Below are positions 54,702 to 64,000 of a stretch of 64,000 bases of DNA, one piece after another. Within the stretch, counting starts at the first letter, position 1, and every line of letters starts with the position of its first letter. The translations under genes and the position numbers were made by a program. Origin of the DNA: Pseudomonas saponiphila (GTDB taxonomy: Bacteria > Pseudomonadota > Gammaproteobacteria > Pseudomonadales > Pseudomonadaceae). The DNA lies in the NCBI RefSeq assembly GCF_900105185.1, contig NZ_FNTJ01000001.1, positions 2,872,501 to 2,936,500 of the forward strand, given 5' to 3'. Under the pieces are notes generated by a model that saw only the letters and a list, made by a program, of their open reading frames with translations, did no database searches and was not told the origin of the DNA.

Positions 54702-54921
54702 CCCCGGCTGTCTCTTGCCGGGTGCCGCCGGCCCGTTGCCCGGTCGCCGGCGGCATTCCCTGACCCCCTTCGCCATGGCTGCACAGATTTCCTCCCCGGC
54801 TTTTCTTCAGGCTCGGGGGGGAAATACTGTCTATCGTCTAATAGGCAAGCAGGAGCTTCATCTCAGGCCGCGTGGGCTTGGAGCACACGGGTCGGTTTTT
54901 CGCTATGGCGCTTGGAGCACT

Positions 54922-57492
54922 ATGGAAAACCCAGGTCTTGATCTGACGCCGGTGCGCAGTATCTCGAATCAGGCGCTGGCCCGCGCCACCTTGCTCGGAT
55001 GCTCGGGATTGCTGTTGGCGCTGTTCATCTTCACCGGCGTGTTGCTGGTGTACATCGCCCTCGACCAGAACCTGGCCGCCGAGCAGCACAACCGCCTGGA
55101 AATCGAACAGGCCCTGCAATCGCTGAAAAACCATGCCCGTCGCACCGTCAAGGACTATGCGCAATGGGGCGATGCCTATCAGCACCTGCACCTGAAGGTC
55201 GATCCGGACTGGGCCTACACCCGGCGCAACTTCGGCCCGTCCCTGTACCGCGACCTGGGTTTTGACGGGGTGTTCGTCATCGACCCGGCGGGTCGCACGG
55301 CCTACGCGCTGGTGGCCGGTCGCCTGCAGGCGATGGATGCCCGGGACTGGTTCGGCGATGCGCTGCAACCCTGGCTGGCGCAGGTGCGCCAGGCGCCCGA
55401 TGGCAAGGTCTTCAGCCGTTATCACGCGATCGGCGGGACACCGGCGCTGGTGTTCACCAGCGTGCTGAGCCCGGGCAGCGATCCGCAAGTGCAGGTCGAT
55501 GGCGGTCCGCAGTCGGTGCTGGTGTTCGTTGTGTGGCTGGATTCGAGCCGTTTGCTGGTGCTGGGCCGTGAGGCGGGCGTCGAGCGCTTGCAGCAGGTCG
55601 CCGCCGGGGCTCCGGGCCCGCAGCCGACCCTGAGCCTGCCCAACGGTGCCGGAACCCTGCACTGGCAGCCGGCGCGACCGGGGCACCAGTTGCTGGTGTT
55701 GGTGATCCCGCTGTTGCTGCTGGCCGGGCTGCTGGTGGGCCTGATGGCGATCCTGCTGCTGCGGCGCTCCGCAGTGGCGGCGCGGCTCATCGATGATCAG
55801 GTCCAGGCCCTGCGCAGCAGTCGGGGGGCGCTGGAGGCCAGCGAAGAGCGTTTTCGCGATGTTGCCGAAGCCGCTTCCGACTGGATCTGGGAAGTGGATC
55901 CGCAACTGCGCTTCACCTACCTGTCCGAGCGCTTCGAGGCCGTCACCGGCCTGTCCCGAGAGGCCGCCCTGGGACGGCCGATGCATGAACTGCTGAGCGC
56001 CGAGCAGGGATCGCTGCGCAACTGGCTGAGCGCCTCGCAGCGGCGTTCCCAGAGCATCCTGCAATGCGCCTACCTGGACGGTCAGCGCCGACCGCGAGTC
56101 TGCCGCCTGTCGGTACGGGCCATGGACGGCGGCGGTTACCGTGGCACCGCCAGCGATATCACCGAGGAGGTCGCGGCCCGGCGGCGCATCGAATACCTGT
56201 CCCAGCACGATGCACTCACCGGTCTGGCCAATCGCATGCGCATGCGCGAGTACCTTGAAGGTCGGCTGTCGGCTCTGCGGGTGCTGCAGGAGCCGCTGTT
56301 GATGCTCAGTGTCGATCTCGACCGCTTCAAGCCGGTGAACGATCTGCTGGGGCATGCCGCCGGCGACCAGGTGCTGCACGAGGTGTCCCAGCGCCTGTCC
56401 CACTGCCTGCGCAGCGAGGACCTGGTGGCTCGGGTCGGTGGCGACGAATTCGTGCTGGTGGTGCCCGGGCAGATGGCCCAGTTGGACATCGACGGCCTGT
56501 GCCGACGCTTGATCCAGCGTATCGAGGAGCCGTTCTACATTGCCGAGCACGAGGTCTTCATCAGTGCCAGCATCGGTGTCGCCCGGGCCCCGGACGATGC
56601 CAGCCAGGCCGAGGAACTGCTGCGCTATGCCGACATGGCCCTGTACGAGGCCAAGGCGGCGGGGCGCAGCACCTGGCGTTTCTATGCCGCTGACATGAAT
56701 GCGCGGATCATCGAGCGCCGCGGTCTGGAGCGCGACCTGCGTCACGCCATCGACCAGGATCAGTTGCGCCTGCAGTTCCTGCCGCGCTATCGGCTGGCCG
56801 ACGGCCAATGGCTGGGCGCCGGGGTGCTGGTGTGCTGGCAGCACCCGCGGCGCGGGCTGCTGGGGCCCGAGGTGTTCATGCCCATCGCCGAGGACACCGG
56901 GCTGATCCTGCCGCTGAGCAACTGGGTGCTGCACGCGGCCTGTCGTGCCGCCCGCGGCTGGCCCGAACACCTGCAACTGGCGGTGAATCTGTCGGCCTGC
57001 GAGTTCCAGCGCGGCCAGCTGGTGGCCAGGATCCGCTCGGTGCTCGGTCAGAGCGGGCTGGCTCCCTCGCGTCTGGTGCTGGAGGTGGCCGACAAGACGC
57101 TGCTGGACGACGGGCGCCAGGTGCAGGACATCATGGGCGGGCTCAAGGCTCTTGGGGTGCAACTGCTGCTGGACGATTTCGGCAGTGGCTGTTCGGCGTT
57201 GCAGGACCTGCGGACCTATCCCCTGGACGGCCTGAAGATCGACAGCGGTCTGGTGGCCGGGCTGGGTCGCAGTCCGGCCGGTCGCTCGATCGTCCAGGCG
57301 ATCGTCGACCTGGGGCATGCCCTGGGCCTGAAAGTGCTCGCCGAAGGGGTGGATACCCCGGAGCAGTTCGCCGCGTTGCGTGACATTCGCTGCGATGAGG
57401 TCCAGGGGCGGCACCTGAGCCCGCCCCTGGACGCCGATGCCCTGTTGCAACTCTGCGCCCAGGCGCCCCGGGCCGGAAGCTCGATGAGCTGA
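54922..57492 (+). CDS. Membrane CHASE4-PAS-GGDEF protein with degenerate EAL domain
   Basis: An 856-residue membrane protein: TM1 about 26-48, a periplasmic CHASE4-like domain (about 50-255, DLGFDGVFVIDPAGRTAYAL), TM2 about 256-280, PAS about 305-420, GGDEF about 425-590, EAL about 600-845. The cyclase signature VARVGGDEFVLV is intact (506-510) with I-site RSED at 497-500. The EAL motif reads GVLVCW at 634-639 instead of EALVRW, so the first metal Glu is missing; LEVADK and HLSPPL also depart from consensus. I expect cyclase activity controlled by c-di-GMP, with the EAL part as a sensor. ATG at 54922 has GGAG; the frame extends upstream to 54715. Confidence 0.85.
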   Translation: MENPGLDLTPVRSISNQALARATLLGCSGLLLALFIFTGVLLVYIALDQNLAAEQHNRLEIEQALQSLKNHARRTVKDYAQWGDAYQHLHLKVDPDWAYTRRNFGPSLYRDLGFDGVFVIDPAGRTAYALVAGRLQAMDARDWFGDALQPWLAQVRQAPDGKVFSRYHAIGGTPALVFTSVLSPGSDPQVQVDGGPQSVLVFVVWLDSSRLLVLGREAGVERLQQVAAGAPGPQPTLSLPNGAGTLHWQPARPGHQLLVLVIPLLLLAGLLVGLMAILLLRRSAVAARLIDDQVQALRSSRGALEASEERFRDVAEAASDWIWEVDPQLRFTYLSERFEAVTGLSREAALGRPMHELLSAEQGSLRNWLSASQRRSQSILQCAYLDGQRRPRVCRLSVRAMDGGGYRGTASDITEEVAARRRIEYLSQHDALTGLANRMRMREYLEGRLSALRVLQEPLLMLSVDLDRFKPVNDLLGHAAGDQVLHEVSQRLSHCLRSEDLVARVGGDEFVLVVPGQMAQLDIDGLCRRLIQRIEEPFYIAEHEVFISASIGVARAPDDASQAEELLRYADMALYEAKAAGRSTWRFYAADMNARIIERRGLERDLRHAIDQDQLRLQFLPRYRLADGQWLGAGVLVCWQHPRRGLLGPEVFMPIAEDTGLILPLSNWVLHAACRAARGWPEHLQLAVNLSACEFQRGQLVARIRSVLGQSGLAPSRLVLEVADKTLLDDGRQVQDIMGGLKALGVQLLLDDFGSGCSALQDLRTYPLDGLKIDSGLVAGLGRSPAGRSIVQAIVDLGHALGLKVLAEGVDTPEQFAALRDIRCDEVQGRHLSPPLDADALLQLCAQAPRAGSSMS

Positions 57493-57535: not shown

Positions 57536-58954
57536 TCAGTCCACTTCGCCGGCCGCTGCCTGGGGGACCTGGCGGATCGGCAGTTCCACGCGAAAGGTGC
57601 TGCCGACCCCCGGTTGGCTGCGGACACTGATCTGCCCGCCGTGTTTCTTGACGATCCCGTAGGACAGCGACAGCCCCAGGCCGGTGCCCTTGCCCACCGG
57701 CTTGGTGGTGAAGAAGGGGTCGAAAATCTTCTGCAGGTGCTGCGCATCGATGCCGCAGCCGGTGTCGCTGACCTCCAGCCAGACATGCTCGCCGTCCACG
57801 CCGTTGCGCAGGGTGATGGTGCCGCGTTCCGGCCCGATGGCCTGGGCGGCGTTGACCACCAGGTTCATCACCACCTGATTGAGCTGGGAGGGCAGGCACT
57901 CGATCGGCGGCAGCTCGTGGAAGTCCTTGACCAGGTCGGCCTTGTACTTGATCTCGTTGGCGACGATGTTCAGGGTCGAATCGATGCCCTGTTGCAGGTC
58001 CGCCAGTTGCCATTGCTGATCGCTGTCGACCCGGGAGAAGTTCTTCAGGTCCTTGACGATCTGCTCGACCCGGCCGATGCCCTCCCTGGACTCCTTGATC
58101 AGCAGCGGGATGTCTTCCTGGAGAAAGTCCAGGTCGATGCTTTCCCGCAGGCTTTGCAGGCGCTTGCGCACTTCCGGTGCGGCGATGGCTTCTTCGCTCT
58201 GGCGGTAGGCGCTGAGCATCTGGCCGATCTGTTGCAGATAACCGCCCAGGCTGCCGAGGTTGGAGGCGACGAAGCCGATGGGGTTGTTGATCTCGTGGGC
58301 CACGCCCGCGGCCAGTTGCCCGAGGGAGGCGAGTTTTTCCGACTGCACCAGCTGGTTCTCCAGTTGCTTGCGCTCGTCGATTTCCTGTTGCAGGGCGGTT
58401 CCGGCACGCTCCAGGTCCGCGGTCCGCCGGGCTACCAGGTCCTCCAGGTGATGCATCTGCAGCAGGGCTCGGGCGGTCATTTCCCACTTGCTGGTGAGGG
58501 TGCTGGCCATCTGCTGGACTTCGATATTGTCGAAGGGCTTCTTCAGGATCAGCAGGCGGTCGTGGCCTTGCAGGCGCTCCAGCAGGTCTTCCCAGGAATA
58601 ATCGGAGTAGGCGGTGCACACCACCACCTGCAGGCGCGGGTCTGCCTGCCACAGCCGTTCGATGGTCTGCACCCCGTCCCAGCCCTGGGGCATGCGCATG
58701 TCGACGAACGCCAGGGCATAGGGGCGCTGCTGCGCCAGGGCCTGGGTCACCTTGTTCAAGCCTTCCTCGCCGCCGTAGGCCGAGTCCAGTTCGAAGGGCT
58801 GCTGGCGGGAGCGGGTCGGGGCGCCGAACAGCTGCGCCTCCAGATCGTCGAGGCCGGCGTTGTCCGTCTGCGGCGTGAGGATCTTGCGAAAGTCCTCGTG
58901 GATCGCGGGGGTGTCGTCGATCAGCAGAATCCGGCGGTTGATCAGTGAGTCCAT
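57536..58954 (-). CDS. Receiver-histidine kinase fusion (soluble)
   Basis: A 472-residue protein. Residues 1-155: receiver ([16 protein letters not shown], phospho-acceptor D85 in [13 protein letters not shown] in ILKKPFD). An extra about 25 residues ([20 protein letters not shown]...) sit between helix 1 and strand 2. Then a coiled coil ([20 protein letters not shown]) and a HisKA/HATPase kinase (H220 in [56 protein letters not shown]). No TM segments. It should take phosphate on the receiver and act as a kinase or relay in the cytoplasm. ATG 58954 overlaps the end of the upstream kinase gene by 13 bases. Last gene of the operon. Confidence 0.88.
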
Positions 58955-60756
58955 GTGGGGTTCTCGGCGTCGATCAGCGGGATGTCCAGAGTGAAGGTGG
59001 CGCCCAGTCCCGGCCCGTCGCTGTGCACGCTGAGCTGGCCGTCCATCTCCATGGCGGCCAGGGCGCAACTGTGCAGGCCGAAGCCGTGGCCCTCCTTGCG
59101 GGTGGTGAATCCGTGGGCAAAGATCCGCGTGAGGTTTTCGGCGGCGATGCCTTCGCCCTGGTCCTGAACCTGGATGCGCAGGGTCCGGCCCTCCAGCACC
59201 CGGACGCGGATGGTCAGGGTGCGGGACTGCTCGTCGAGGTCGGACATGGCGTATTTGGCGTTGCTGATCAGGTTGATCAGGATCAGCAGCATGCGGTGCT
59301 TGTCGCCCATCACCTCGGGCACTTCGGCGTAGTCCTTGACCACCGTGACCTGGTGCCGGACCAGGGCCCCGGAGTTCATGCGCAGGGCGTCGTCGATCAG
59401 TTCGTTGACCCGCAGGGGTTCGACCAGCCGCGAGGCGCCGGCATAGGACTGCTGGGTGGCGACGATTTCCTTGATGTGATCGATACTGCGCCCGAGCTGG
59501 GCCAGCTCGTCGCTCATGCCCTGTTGCTCGCTGGCGATGGCCTCTACCAGCTGGTTGAGGTAGCCGGGGAGCAGCTTGCCCTTTTCGTCTTCAGTGAAGA
59601 ACTGCCCCAGGTCGCCCTGGTGCTGGTTGATCAGTTGCATCGCCTTGCCCAGGCCCTGGGCCTTGCTGGAGCGCAGGGTGCGGCCCAGCAGTTCGCTGGA
59701 GATGTTCACGCTGTTGAGCACGTTGCCGACGTTGTGCAGCACATTGGTGGCGATTTCCGCCATGCCCGCCTGGCGCGCGGCGTGCAGCAGTTCGCTCTGG
59801 GCTTCCTTGAGCTCGTGGGTACGTTCCTCGACCCGTTGCTCCAGGTGTTCATTGGCGCTCTGCAGGGCGGTGTTGACCCGGCGGATCACTCCGTAGCTGC
59901 GCAGCAGGTGGAACACCAGATAGAGGATCAACAGCACCAGCAGCGTCGAGAACACCAGCAAGTACTGAAGGGACTTCTGGTCCTGCAGGTCGGCCTGGAG
60001 CTGGTCGCTGTTGAGCTGGGCGTTGATCTCGTCCAGGCGCTGGGCCACCGGGATCGAGGTGATTTTCTCCAGCAGCTGGTTGACCATCGGCTGTTCGCGC
60101 AGGATCACCGAGACGTGGTTGCTGAGGATTTCCACCGGCTCGTGCATGGCCTCGGGCAGGCGTTGCTTGTTCACCGCCAGCTTGTTCAGCCCCACCAGAA
60201 TGTCGGCGGCCTTGTCGTCGCTGGACACCTGGGCGAACTCCAGGCTGCTGAGCAGCAGGTCGTAGGTGTCGATGGCGATGCTCTGCTGTGCCAGGCGCTG
60301 GGCGTCATCCAGACCGGCCAGGCGGACCTGGATGTCGTCCTCGGCGGTGGGCAGGAAGGCCAGGGAGTTGCGCAGCACCGAGTTGTGGGACTTGAAGCGC
60401 TCCACCAGGTCGGCCTTTTCCTGGAACGCGGCGAGAAAGGCCTGATGACTGGCCTGCCATCCCTGGGGGTCTACATGCTCCTGCTGCGACACCTGATCGA
60501 AGCGACTCCACAGTCGATTGATCTGCTGCACCGGCAGCACCAGGGGATCGTAGTCATGGGTGATGGCGATGCGGGACTTGAGCACCTCGGTTTCCCACTG
60601 GGCGTTCAGTTGCTTGATGTGACCGATCAGGTCCCGGGACAGGGCGTAGTTCGCCGTCTGGCCGATGACCGTCTTCAGGTAGAGGAACGCCAGCGCCAGG
60701 ACCAGGCCGAGGATCAGCAGGGTGAACAGGGTGACGGGCAGGCGGGGCCGCTTCAT
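58942..60756 (-). CDS. Membrane histidine kinase with large all-helical periplasmic domain
   Basis: A 604-residue kinase: TM1 residues 8-28, a 230-residue periplasmic domain predicted wholly helical (DLIGHIKQLNAQWETEVLKSR, HDYDPLVLPVQQINRLW), TM2 265-285, coiled coil, H-box with His341 in EIATNVLHNVGNVLNSV (an unusual LHNVGN type), and HATPase with GHGFGLHSCALAAMEM. The periplasmic part resembles the DAHL domain as I recall it. It overlaps the peroxidase gene by ATGA. It most likely senses a redox or peroxide signal together with the peroxidase product in the periplasm; this is inference. Confidence 0.85.
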   Translation of the reverse strand: MKRPRLPVTLFTLLILGLVLALAFLYLKTVIGQTANYALSRDLIGHIKQLNAQWETEVLKSRIAITHDYDPLVLPVQQINRLWSRFDQVSQQEHVDPQGWQASHQAFLAAFQEKADLVERFKSHNSVLRNSLAFLPTAEDDIQVRLAGLDDAQRLAQQSIAIDTYDLLLSSLEFAQVSSDDKAADILVGLNKLAVNKQRLPEAMHEPVEILSNHVSVILREQPMVNQLLEKITSIPVAQRLDEINAQLNSDQLQADLQDQKSLQYLLVFSTLLVLLILYLVFHLLRSYGVIRRVNTALQSANEHLEQRVEERTHELKEAQSELLHAARQAGMAEIATNVLHNVGNVLNSVNISSELLGRTLRSSKAQGLGKAMQLINQHQGDLGQFFTEDEKGKLLPGYLNQLVEAIASEQQGMSDELAQLGRSIDHIKEIVATQQSYAGASRLVEPLRVNELIDDALRMNSGALVRHQVTVVKDYAEVPEVMGDKHRMLLILINLISNAKYAMSDLDEQSRTLTIRVRVLEGRTLRIQVQDQGEGIAAENLTRIFAHGFTTRKEGHGFGLHSCALAAMEMDGQLSVHSDGPGLGATFTLDIPLIDAENPTWTH

Positions 60757-61739
60757 AGGGGCTTGTCCTGCCATTGCCCGGTCAGGGTCTTGAGAAACTT
60801 GACGATCAGGCCGGTGTCCTGGGGGCTCGGGGTCCGGCCCAGCTGGTACTTGAACATCACCTCCACCGCCTGCTCCAGGGTCTGCGCCGAGCCATCGTGG
60901 AAGTAGGGCGCGGTCACCGCCACGTTGCGCAGGCTGGGGACCTTGAAGACGTTGCGGTCCTGCTCGTCGCCGGTGATCAGGAAGCGCCCCAGGTCGGCCT
61001 CGGTGGGGTTGCCCCGAGCGGCGAAATAGTCGCCCATCACGCCGAACTTCTGCAGCATGTTGCCGCCGATATTGACCCCTTGATGGCAGGCGATGCAGCC
61101 GTAGTCCTTGAAGCGCTGGTAGCCGTATTTCTCGTCCAGGCTGAGGATCTCGGTGTTGCCTTGTAGGTACTGGTCGAAGCGCGAGCCGCTGCTGAGCAGG
61201 GTGCGTTCGTAGCTGGCCAGGGCGTCCTGCACGTTGGCCGCGGTCAGCGCATCCGGGTACAGCTGGGCGAAGCTCTGGCGGTAGTCGGGGTCCTCACTCA
61301 AGGTGCGCAGCAGGTTGGGCCAGTTGTTGCCCATCTCGATCGGGCTTTGCACCACCTGGTCGATCTGCGCTTCGAGGGTGACGGCGCGGGCGTCCCAGAA
61401 CTGGCGAAAGTTCAACGCGGCGTTGAACACGCTGGGGGCATTGACCAGGGTCAGCTGGCCCTTGATGCCCAGGGACTTGGCCTGATTGTCGGCGCCGCCT
61501 TGGTCCAGCCGGTGGCAGCTGGCGCAGGAGCGGCTGTGGTCCTGGGACAGGCGCGGCTCGTTGAACAGTCGGCGCCCCAGTTCCACGCGCCTGGGGTCGA
61601 GGTCGGGGGGCGCGGGCAGGGGCTTGAGGGGTTCGTCCAGGGGCGCCGCGATGGCGGGCAGGGCGATGCCGAGCAAGCACCAGAGCGCCACGCCCAGGTG
61701 GCAACGCCGCAGGCGGCGGGCAAGGGCTGCGCGGTTCAT
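60753..61739 (-). CDS. Periplasmic di-haem cytochrome c peroxidase family protein
   Basis: A 328-residue protein with signal peptide (cut near residue 32, AIAA) and two CXXCH haem sites, CASCH at 72-76 and CIACH at 215-219, plus the family block VVQSPIEMGNNW and SPIEMGNNWPNLLR, and FHDGSAQTLEQAV near the end. It reduces H2O2 using electrons from cytochrome c or similar donors, or is a MauG-like relative. It overlaps the upstream receiver-GGDEF-EAL gene by ATGA and the downstream kinase by ATGA. Such tight packing with signalling genes is unusual for a peroxidase. Confidence 0.88.
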   Translation of the reverse strand: MNRAALARRLRRCHLGVALWCLLGIALPAIAAPLDEPLKPLPAPPDLDPRRVELGRRLFNEPRLSQDHSRSCASCHRLDQGGADNQAKSLGIKGQLTLVNAPSVFNAALNFRQFWDARAVTLEAQIDQVVQSPIEMGNNWPNLLRTLSEDPDYRQSFAQLYPDALTAANVQDALASYERTLLSSGSRFDQYLQGNTEILSLDEKYGYQRFKDYGCIACHQGVNIGGNMLQKFGVMGDYFAARGNPTEADLGRFLITGDEQDRNVFKVPSLRNVAVTAPYFHDGSAQTLEQAVEVMFKYQLGRTPSPQDTGLIVKFLKTLTGQWQDKPL

Positions 61740-63652
61740 GGCTGGTCCTCTGCCGCGGGGCTGGCCCGCTCTTGCAGGAAGCGGGCGAAGTCTGCCGCGG
61801 GCAAGGCCTTGCTGAAGTAGTAGCCCTGGCCTTCCTCGCAGCCCTGCTGGTTGAGAAAGGCCAGTTGCTGCTCTGTCTCCACCCCTTCGGCAATCACGTT
61901 CAGGTTGAGGTTGCGTCCCAACTGGATGATGGCGCTGACCAGGGTCGCGTCCTTGGGGTTGTGGCTCAGGCCGTGGACGAAGGACTGGTCGATCTTCAGT
62001 ACGTCCAACGGGAACTTGCGCAGGTAGCTGAGGCAGGAGTAGCCGGTGCCGAAATCGTCCACCGCCAGGCGCACCCCCAGGTTCTTGATGGCCAGCAGGA
62101 TGGCCAGGGTCGCCTCGACGTTCTGCATCAATACCCCTTCGGTGATTTCCAGCTCCAGCAAGGTCGGGTCCAGGCCGCTGTCCTGCAGAGCGCGGTGCAA
62201 CTGCGCGAGCAACTGCGGCTGGCGGAAATCGCTGGCCGAGAGGTTGACCGACAGGCGGATCGGTGCGAGCCCGGCCTGTTGCCAGGCGCTGGACTGGCGG
62301 GTGGCCTCGCCCAGCACCCACTGACTGACGGCGTTGATCAGGCCGCTGTCTTCGGCCACCGGGATGAACCGGGCCGGGCTGACCCAGCCCCGTTGCGGGC
62401 TGAACCAGCGGATCAGCGCTTCGGCACCCACTACCTGGCCCGAAGCCAGGTGGATTTTTGGCTGGTAGTGCAACACAAACTCCCGATGTTCCAGGGCCTG
62501 GCGAATGCCTGACTCCAGGTGCTGCTGTTCCCGGGCCCGGTGGGTCATGTCCTCGGTAAAGAAGCCGTAGCTGCCCGGTGCCTGGTCCTTACTGTTGCGC
62601 ATGGCCATCTCGGCCTTCTTGATCAGGGTCAGGGCATCCTGGCCATCCTCGGGATACAGGCTGATTCCCAGGCTGGCGGTGACCTGCAGGTCGTACCCGG
62701 CGATGTCATGCACCTGGCTCACCGTGGCCAGGAGTTTGTGCGCGATGCTGCGCACCTGGGGCGGCGGCTGCTGGTCATGCAGCAGCACCACGAACTCGTC
62801 GGAGCCGTAGCGGAACACCGAGTCCGACTCGCGCATGCTTTGCTGCAGGGCCTGGGCGATGCGCTTGAGCAGTTCATCGCCTGTCGGGTAGCCCAGGGCC
62901 TGGTTGATCCGCTTGAAGCGGTCCAGGCCCAGGAACAGCACCGCCAGCTGTTGCCCATAGCGCCGGGCCCGGGCCATGGCCTGGCTCAGGCGATCGCCCA
63001 GCAGGGTGCTGGAGGGCAGCCCGGTGAGCACGTCGTAGTGCAGCAGGTGCGAAACCTTGAGCAGCTCGGCGACCCGCTCCTCGATAGCCCGCTGCAGATC
63101 GTCGAGCTTGTGCCGCGCATCCTGGGCCATCTGCCATTTCCAGGTCAGGGCACTGGCCATCTGGCGGATTTCCAGGCTGTCGAAGGGCTTTTTCAGAATC
63201 AGCAGACGATCACCGAAGGCCAGGCGCTCGGCCAGGGCTTCCCAGGAGTAGTCGGAGTAGGCGGTGCACAGGGCGATCTGCAGCTCGGGGTCGGCCAGCC
63301 ACAGCTGTTCGATGGTTTGCAGGCCGTCCCAGCCCGGCGGCATGCGCATGTCGATGAAGGCCATGGCATAAGGCGTGCCCTGGGCCAGGGCCGCCTCGAC
63401 CTTGGCCAGGGCTTCGCGGCCCTGGAACGCCGAATCCAGGCTGAAGGTCGGTGCGGGGCGGTACTCGGGGCGACCGAACAACTGCTCCTCAAGCTGGCCC
63501 CGGTCCGCTTCCAGCCGGGGGGCGAGGATCTTGTAGAAGTCTTGGTGGATCTCGGGGCTGTCATCGACGATCAGCACTCGCCGGTTGACCCGCGCGAAGG
63601 GCGGGCCCGGGGCGTCTTGCGCGGTTGTCTGTGGGTCGCAGCCAGTATCCAT
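61736..63652 (-). CDS. Response regulator with GGDEF and EAL output domains
   Basis: A 638-residue protein. Residues 20-165: receiver (LIVDDSPEIHQDFYKI; phospho-acceptor D101 in AFIDMRMPPGWDG; K155 in LILKKPFD) with the same extra loop as the receiver at 57536. GGDEF about 205-370: motif is GSDEF (RYGSDEFVVL, 283-287), second Gly replaced, no clear I-site. EAL about 380-630: EALIRW 411-416, NLSASDF, LELEITEG, VDDFGTGYSCL, VLKIDQSFV, VIAEGVETE all present. I expect mainly c-di-GMP phosphodiesterase activity under receiver control. ATG at 63652 is the first gene of the operon. Confidence 0.88.
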   Translation of the reverse strand: MDTGCDPQTTAQDAPGPPFARVNRRVLIVDDSPEIHQDFYKILAPRLEADRGQLEEQLFGRPEYRPAPTFSLDSAFQGREALAKVEAALAQGTPYAMAFIDMRMPPGWDGLQTIEQLWLADPELQIALCTAYSDYSWEALAERLAFGDRLLILKKPFDSLEIRQMASALTWKWQMAQDARHKLDDLQRAIEERVAELLKVSHLLHYDVLTGLPSSTLLGDRLSQAMARARRYGQQLAVLFLGLDRFKRINQALGYPTGDELLKRIAQALQQSMRESDSVFRYGSDEFVVLLHDQQPPPQVRSIAHKLLATVSQVHDIAGYDLQVTASLGISLYPEDGQDALTLIKKAEMAMRNSKDQAPGSYGFFTEDMTHRAREQQHLESGIRQALEHREFVLHYQPKIHLASGQVVGAEALIRWFSPQRGWVSPARFIPVAEDSGLINAVSQWVLGEATRQSSAWQQAGLAPIRLSVNLSASDFRQPQLLAQLHRALQDSGLDPTLLELEITEGVLMQNVEATLAILLAIKNLGVRLAVDDFGTGYSCLSYLRKFPLDVLKIDQSFVHGLSHNPKDATLVSAIIQLGRNLNLNVIAEGVETEQQLAFLNQQGCEEGQGYYFSKALPAADFARFLQERASPAAEDQP

Positions 63653-63850
63653 AGACCGTCCCTAGTGCCCTGAGCGTGCGTTCAACGCTGTGAGCATAGT
63701 CACTGTGTTCTGCGCGGGTGGAGGTTTTTTTTACTTTGGAGCAGAGCGCGAAAGCAAAAGCTGACTAGGATTGCCACAACAATCGAGCAGTTGGCCGGTA
63801 GCCTCTCTGGGGCGCCGGCCAACCTGCAGGATCACCGGGAGACTCATCAC

Positions 63851-64000
63851 ATGGAAGAGCCGCAGTCCGTCGAACCTGGCCGGCGTCCCTGCCTGTTGCT
63901 GGTGGATGACGAAGAATCGATTCTCAACAGCCTGCGGCGCCTGCTGCGCGGCCAACCCTATGACGTGGTGCTGGCCGACAGCGGCGCCAGGGCCCTGGAA
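63851..64000 (+). CDS. Response regulator, N-terminal part (truncated by window edge)
   Basis: ATG at 63851, after CACCGGGAGACTC. The visible 50 codons read MEEPQSVEPGRRPCLLLVDDE, then ESILNSLRRLLRGQPYDVVL, the start of a receiver with the acidic DDE pair. It diverges from the signalling operon across about 200 bases that must hold both promoters. The output domain lies beyond the window; it may take part in the same phosphorelay. Confidence 0.8.
   Translation, partial: MEEPQSVEPGRRPCLLLVDDEESILNSLRRLLRGQPYDVVLADSGARALE

Follow-up and report, generated by a model that had tools for sequence, protein, structure and literature searches.

In a 64,000-nucleotide stretch of the Pseudomonas saponiphila genome (contig NZ_FNTJ01000001.1, positions 2,872,501 to 2,936,500; hereafter the window), four genes on the minus strand are packed end to start between positions 57536 and 63652. 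They encode a response regulator with receiver, GGDEF and EAL domains (RGE), a di-haem cytochrome c peroxidase (CCP), a membrane histidine kinase with a predicted periplasmic DAHL domain, and a second kinase that carries a receiver (RHK). Our best explanation of the whole is that CCP and DAHL probably form a two-protein periplasmic sensory module, which would feed the kinase, RGE, RHK and a divergently encoded receiver-HD-GYP regulator.

In this model, CCP would meet hydrogen peroxide (H2O2), reflect the electron supply of the periplasm, or both. The DAHL domain of the kinase would read the state of CCP, whether haem oxidation, turnover or conformation, by contact. We infer this contact, the nature of the signal and the direction in which information would pass from sequence comparisons. 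The kinase would then phosphorylate two sister receivers, those of RGE and RHK. RGE would act as a phosphodiesterase of cyclic di-GMP (c-di-GMP), and RHK would most likely pass its phosphate to the HD-GYP protein. The phosphotransfer steps and the sign of the effect on c-di-GMP are likewise predictions.

A first-pass annotation had described the four overlapping genes (ATGA, ATGA and 13 bases), their domains and their haem motifs at these coordinates, and open reading frames, Pfam and a motif search confirm all of this. The Pfam domains across the four genes are EAL, GGDEF, CCP_MauG, DAHL, HATPase_c, HisKA and receivers. That annotation also proposed, as a plausible design, that the peroxidase or its haem redox state would be the input of the kinase. 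Gene order and the CCP-DAHL linkage make this hypothesis the best-supported reading.

Linkage of the peroxidase and DAHL genes

At locus L064, from a Thiotrichaceae metagenome-assembled genome, a CCP gene lies directly before the gene for a DAHL protein, and this prompted a wider search. Among 369 gammaproteobacterial genomes, 57 had a DAHL match and 48 had one over the curated cut-off. Leaving aside the window's own, there were 59 matches over the cut-off; all were examined, and 54 of them have a CCP gene directly upstream in the same orientation. Four of the 15 matches below the cut-off were fetched, none with a CCP. A search of the phylum (398 genomes) gave 69 non-own rows over the cut-off, from which 29 were examined, one per genome, including three from Pseudomonas and one more from the class. 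CCP was found in the flank of every one (29/29). The first-pass annotation, which had suggested checking whether the kinase's periplasmic domain co-occurs with the peroxidase, missed this general rule. In a control family of the same class, dCache_1, CCP was beside none of 30 loci, with about 1.5 kb searched on each side. As a separate observation on L064, its DAHL protein (L064:2724-4325) seems from the alignment to have lost the kinase H-box together with a large part of the ATP site.

At the 83 junctions from the class and phylum sets, the nearest possible DAHL start lies from 17 bases before to 15 bases after the CCP stop, and at 60 of them the overlap is exactly 4 bases, figures in which the choice of the nearest start favours short distances. 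The DAHL domains themselves have diverged widely, 30 aligned examples being only 16-26% identical to that of the window. What lies behind DAHL also varies. Among 70 proteins, domain matches comprised 34 GGDEF, 27 EAL, 30 HATPase_c, 12 receiver, 6 Hpt, 2 CZB and 1 nucleotide cyclase. These proteins came from 28 class loci of a first batch (L069 omitted), all 30 of a second and 12 of the phylum set; three of them are cut by a contig end, four have no adjoining CCP, and in some no output domain shows. CCP and DAHL stay constant while the outputs change, and this points to CCP as part of the input. Many relatives would couple the sensor to c-di-GMP directly, whereas the window locus would do so via phosphotransfer.

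The DAHL kinase and its residue signature

The membrane kinase (58942..60756, minus strand, 604 residues) overlaps the CCP gene through ATGA, and an in-frame ATG at 60774 offers an alternative start. Its DAHL domain spans residues 36-258 (59983..60651), is flanked by two hydrophobic stretches that would place it in the periplasm, and scores 161.9 bits against a curated cut-off of 38 (PF19443, E 2.4e-47). The kinase core that follows has an H-box, VLHNVGN, with His341, an N-box, NLISNAKYAM, and the glycine-rich ATP motifs DQGEG and GHGFG. Pfam did not detect HisKA in this protein, and a sequence-profile comparison of DAHL with the PDB gave no credible match.

Of 249 Pseudomonas genomes, 98 have DAHL over the cut-off. 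In 26 of the 249 there is a further DAHL kinase, which we call type II, and all 26 also have a row of type I, the type found in the operon. We examined 29 further type-I rows and 16 of the 26 type-II rows from this search, and read the neighbours of three type-II loci. CCP is beside the kinase at all 29 type-I loci. The type-II kinases are 51-56% identical to the operon kinase, and no CCP is near them at the 16 loci fetched (L309-L324). Another row of the phylum search, G482:C130, is likewise a type-II locus without CCP.

Three DAHL residues form a signature of the linkage. Asp70 (60547..60549) is kept in 81 of the 83 linked DAHL domains and in 29/29 of type I, and is found in 0/16 of type II. 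For Asn130 (60367..60369) the counts are 73/83, 29/29 and 0/16, and for His214 (60115..60117) 70/83, 29/29 and 5/16. K114, F121, L128 and R129, in contrast, are all retained in 16/16 type-II domains. At L069 and L112 the signature is retained with no adjoining CCP, and in both genomes a CCP is encoded at another place, with 49% and 45% identity to the query respectively.

Two kinases with DAHL-like domains below the cut-off (L128 and L129, 570 residues) begin about 33 bases after a gene of unknown kind encoding 577-581 residues. The product of that gene has a lipoprotein-like N-terminus, and this is possibly another pairing with an accessory protein.

The peroxidase

The CCP gene (60753..61739, minus strand, 328 residues) overlaps RGE through ATGA. 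Its product matches PF03150 (E 3.7e-56), has an N-terminal hydrophobic stretch and is predicted to be periplasmic. The translation contains two CxxCH motifs, CASCH at residues 72-76 (61512..61526) and CIACH at residues 215-219 (61083..61097); from the family we take the first to hold the peroxidatic haem and the second the electron-transfer haem. The Cys and His of these motifs are each kept in 137-139 of 139 aligned CCP rows. The inter-haem tryptophan (W115), the methionine of the electron-transfer haem (M295) and the catalytic glutamate (E135) are all present. Among the linked CCPs the Trp is kept in 83/83 and the Met at 295 in 78/83.

Classical CCPs, which need reductive activation, have a distal histidine on a mobile loop that caps the peroxidatic haem; at this place the alignment puts Ile92 (61464..61466) of the window CCP. 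The loop His occurs in 1/83 linked CCPs, in 0/55 of a Pseudomonas set that includes the window's own copy and that of L064, and in 8/20 unlinked CCPs of the same genomes. The second CCP of the window genome (L260) retains it. YhjA, in which the peroxidatic haem has no distal ligand, does not depend on reductive activation (PMC10301912). Because the loop His is absent here as in YhjA, the window CCP may be ready for peroxide in the oxidised state. The third, N-terminal haem of the YhjA type is absent, since CCP has two CxxCH motifs only. Nor does it look like MauG, which carries a tyrosine at the place of M295. A legend on MauG mentions Tyr-His ligation (PMC6405878). In a PDB search with the window protein, CCP entries score above MauG, and its best NCBIfam match is the MbnH family, below the cut-off of that family.

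Linked CCPs separate from unlinked ones. In a tree of the peroxidases, 85 linked and 20 unlinked sequences fall on opposite sides of one branch, and none of 500 label shuffles gave a value as low. Four linked rows (L072, L131-L133) were dropped from this tree and 5 of the 55 Pseudomonas-set rows were kept. At position 227, beyond the second haem motif, Asn is carried by 83/83 linked and 55/55 Pseudomonas-set CCPs and by 3/20 unlinked ones. At L084, the CCP beside DAHL matches as two adjoining pieces, as though frameshifted or interrupted. In the available text of a network study of the CCP_MauG superfamily, the terms "histidine kinase", "signal transduction" and "sensor" do not appear (PMC6405878).

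Output branches and conservation in Pseudomonas

RGE (61736..63652, minus strand, 638 residues) was assigned its domains by Pfam and a motif survey, its receiver scoring 29.2 bits, slightly below the Pfam cut-off of 30.2. EAL domains can be recognised by the motifs EALIRW, NLSAS, LEITE, DDFGTG, KIDQSF and AEGVE, and RGE has all of them. Its GGDEF motif reads RYGSDEF, a degenerate form. Across 51 RGE copies, our own included, RYGSDEF or RYGADEF is present in all 50 for which this motif was read, GAEAL in 50 and LKIDQ in 49. Because the GGDEF motif reads GSDEF while the EAL motifs are present, phosphodiesterase activity is more likely for RGE than cyclase activity.

RHK (57536..58954, minus strand, 472 residues) has receiver, HisKA and HATPase domains and no transmembrane-like stretch. 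It overlaps the DAHL kinase by 13 bases and is the only one of the four proteins in which Pfam finds HisKA. Its receiver shares 63% identity with that of RGE; after this pair, the closest match in the 7.4 Mb genome has 37% identity over 81 residues. Two such sister receivers in one operon fit a single shared kinase.

The divergent receiver-HD-GYP regulator starts at 63851 on the plus strand, 199 bases from the first base of RGE, and continues past the window edge (63851..64000 within it). The complete gene, L009:8351-9706, encodes 451 residues. By eye, YN replaces the HD pair in this protein (ALYNIGK), and it may be catalytically dead.

A search with peptide patterns of the kinase itself found 54 Pseudomonas loci and two others, one of them L064; some of these close relatives are perhaps of the same species as loci of the genus search. 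Gene order is kept. Among the 54, the kinase is present at 54, CCP at 53, RGE at 50, RHK at 49 and the HD-GYP gene at 48 (one of them, at L058, broken). Split genes were counted as present (the HD-GYP gene of L063 in two frames, RHK of L041 and L044 in two pieces, and the HD-GYP gene of L014 with a gap).

The losses of RHK and HD-GYP go together. Judged from the loci, RHK is absent at five (L020, L037, L039, L058 and L060). On the kinase tree these absences require five changes, and well-supported branches force at least three. For four of these genomes the HD-GYP matches listed are all partial, with no more than 44% identity. In the fifth, L058, the HD-GYP gene is broken by stop codons, and it is intact in the sister locus L036. 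HD-GYP is therefore missing or broken in 5/5 loci that miss RHK, and both genes are present at the 47 other loci, with the contig-edge loci L027 and L051 set aside. This is not the mark of one deletion, because the two genes sit at opposite ends of genes that are retained, and so RHK probably serves the divergent HD-GYP regulator.

An additional gene, for a receiver-PAS-GGDEF-EAL protein, is found at 33 of the 54 loci and not at the window's locus (for example L015:4808-7114, where it overlaps the RGE start). It has an intact GGDEF motif, RLGGDEF, and a degenerate EAL domain (LKLAQ in 32/33). With this gene beside RGE, many relatives would carry a predicted cyclase together with a predicted phosphodiesterase.

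Upstream region and a neighbouring gene

The intergenic stretch that separates the operon from its divergent neighbour (63653..63850) contains blocks upstream of RGE that are conserved in 7/7 aligned loci, with no regulator assigned to them. No FNR/Anr box was found in this region, and a scan for sigma-70-like promoters found none. With one mismatch allowed, the window has a single FNR/Anr match, which falls within the kinase gene and is no more than expected by chance. Convergent with the operon, at 54715-57492 on the plus strand, is a gene for what appears by eye to be a membrane PAS-GGDEF-EAL protein; it is in the fetched flanks of 6 of the 54 relatives (L010-L014 and L057).

Discussion

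The interpretation in the first-pass annotation is partly supported. The gene order, whose absence from other genomes would have told against it, is kept in Pseudomonas, and the CCP-DAHL linkage extends beyond the genus. Its proposal of two receivers under one kinase fits their mutual identity and the lack of another close relative in the genome. Its four genes hold as an operon; it missed the degeneration of the GGDEF motif in RGE and overlooked the HD-GYP gene beside them. Finally, it knew of no characterised system of exactly this composition. Our search agrees: no CCP-DAHL system and no CCP-kinase-c-di-GMP system is described in the open-access literature searched, mostly as titles and the starts of abstracts and with most subscription journals outside it. 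A CCP-DAHL gene pair is, however, already in print for Campylobacter.

The one studied DAHL protein found in that literature is the chemoreceptor Tlp10 of Campylobacter jejuni, reported to bind several classes of ligand, including malate (PMC9796306). DAHL/PF19443 is also named in a methods paper (PMC8998981). A review treats Tlp10 and DocB as one protein, has docB directly preceded by docA, a putative CCP gene, and names both genes as needed for colonisation of chicks (PMC3156733). The two CcP loci did not contribute to H2O2 resistance (PMC3156733, and for strain 81-176 PMC4518328), although mutation of Cj0358 does affect peroxide resistance in another strain (PMC4518328). The rule that pairs CCP with DAHL therefore seems to hold outside the phylum we searched, with a peroxidase whose role detoxification does not explain, the DAHL domain of Tlp10 being matched to PF19443 by name only. 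DocA-DocB resembles the window genes in having a putative CCP gene immediately upstream of the gene for a DAHL protein and a CCP that is dispensable for H2O2 resistance. It differs in that the output is a chemoreceptor rather than a kinase and that small ligands are reported to bind to its DAHL, likened by domain name. In the available text of PMC3156733, PMC9796306 and PMC4518328, DocA is not treated as the partner of DocB.

How might CCP and DAHL work together? We tentatively suggest, with confidence that stops a little short of an even chance, that DAHL is a docking receptor for this group of di-haem peroxidases. Enzyme turnover or haem redox state would be the detector, and the pair, as one constant receptor for peroxide or redox state, would be plugged into kinases, c-di-GMP enzymes, chemoreceptors as in DocA-DocB, and other cyclases. 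The face of the electron-transfer haem, with N227, would be the contact surface and would replace the site for an electron donor. A different mechanism is that DAHL binds a small ligand of its own, in a pocket around D70, N130 and H214, and that CCP is co-expressed to detoxify, or to make or remove the ligand. We think this rather unlikely, and it stays a strong rival because Tlp10 is reported to bind small ligands. The conserved polar residues of DAHL could line such a pocket, and the type-II kinases and L039 persist without an adjoining CCP. Against it, CCP stays directly upstream whatever the output, c-di-GMP enzymes included, the linked CCPs separate from the unlinked on the tree, and docA of Campylobacter is needed for colonisation and not for H2O2 resistance (PMC3156733, PMC4518328).

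It is also conceivable that CCP is a modifying enzyme in the style of MauG or MbnH, with DAHL as its substrate and an oxidised residue as the signal. We consider this improbable. CCP belongs to the same superfamily, and MbnH is its best NCBIfam match, but the Met at 295, where MauG has Tyr, is kept in nearly all linked CCPs, MauG ranks below CCP entries in the PDB search, and the Trp at position 54 of DAHL is shared by only 7 of 83 linked domains. HbpS, discussed below, does signal through oxidative modification of itself (PMC4991794). Least probable, to our minds almost negligible, is an ordinary neighbourhood of packed genes with no common signalling mechanism. Against such a neighbourhood stand docA-docB in Campylobacter (PMC3156733), the span of the linkage across the phylum sample despite the divergence of the DAHL domains, and the empty dCache_1 control. 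Tight packing by itself is nonetheless common in Pseudomonas.

Several observations weigh against docking of CCP on DAHL, or against parts of the wider model. Five of the 59 class loci have no adjoining CCP (L069, L096 at a contig edge, L112, L122 and L123), and L122 and L123 retain D70 all the same. At L039 the DAHL kinase and its signature are retained with no CCP match in the genome, whose completeness is not given; recent loss of CCP would explain this. Some signature positions are partly retained in type II (Y69 in 7/16, K122 in 6/16, S131 in 6/16 and P136 in 9/16). The aligned catalytic Glu is present in only 61/83 linked CCPs. The branch that divides the CCPs into linked and unlinked has support of only 85 in the Shimodaira-Hasegawa-like approximate likelihood ratio test (SH-aLRT), the tree, having no outgroup, identifies neither side as the clade, and the 20 unlinked rows are a selection made by hand, mostly from the better-scoring ones. 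The linkage was compared with a single control family. The Fisher test of RHK and HD-GYP co-loss (p = 1.7e-5) ignores relatedness, and a pair test on the tree was under-powered. Finally, by analogy with the small-ligand binding of Tlp10, DAHL may need no contact with CCP, and both could be true.

Other systems share parts of this design. In LuxP-LuxQ and ChvE-VirA, an accessory periplasmic solute-binding protein passes the signal to a membrane kinase. The likeness is that of an accessory periplasmic protein with a membrane kinase; the difference is that here the accessory protein is a redox enzyme and the sensor is DAHL. In the H-NOX system of Shewanella the haem sensor is cytoplasmic. H-NOX, HnoK and HnoB comprise a separate haem sensor, a kinase and a receiver-phosphodiesterase for c-di-GMP, but H-NOX senses nitric oxide, whereas the haem protein of the window is predicted to be periplasmic and enzymatic (PMC8846402). 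On present comparison the nearest mechanistic precedent is HbpS-SenS-SenR of Streptomyces, where a separate extracytoplasmic haem-binding protein is encoded beside a sensor kinase (PMC4991794). HbpS is reported to bind the sensing domain of SenS, controlling autophosphorylation under redox stress, and differs from CCP in being an octameric, PAS/GAF-like haem binder rather than a di-haem c-type peroxidase (PMC4991794). SenS-SenR controls transcription, whereas the outputs of DAHL systems are mostly c-di-GMP enzymes or kinases. The window CCP itself has the two c-haems, the tryptophan between them, the Met on the electron-transfer haem and the catalytic Glu of classical bacterial CCPs (PMC10094543). 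It differs from these in lacking the distal loop His, as YhjA does (PMC10301912), and in being encoded with a sensor.

Until now DAHL has been known as a sensor domain, with small ligands described for a single chemoreceptor, and di-haem peroxidases have counted as enzymes of detoxification or respiration; we found no paper joining the two in the open literature searched. The near-constant pairing, with outputs that are interchangeable, suggests that one group of peroxidases takes part in signalling. If docking is correct, it would explain why docA is important to Campylobacter without protecting against peroxide, and docA may act as a receptor partner. Soil pseudomonads offer natural comparisons, namely paralogues without CCP, a strain from which CCP has been lost, and an output branch that has disappeared several times. 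In these bacteria the CCP-DAHL pair would tie periplasmic peroxide or electron supply to the c-di-GMP lifestyle switch.

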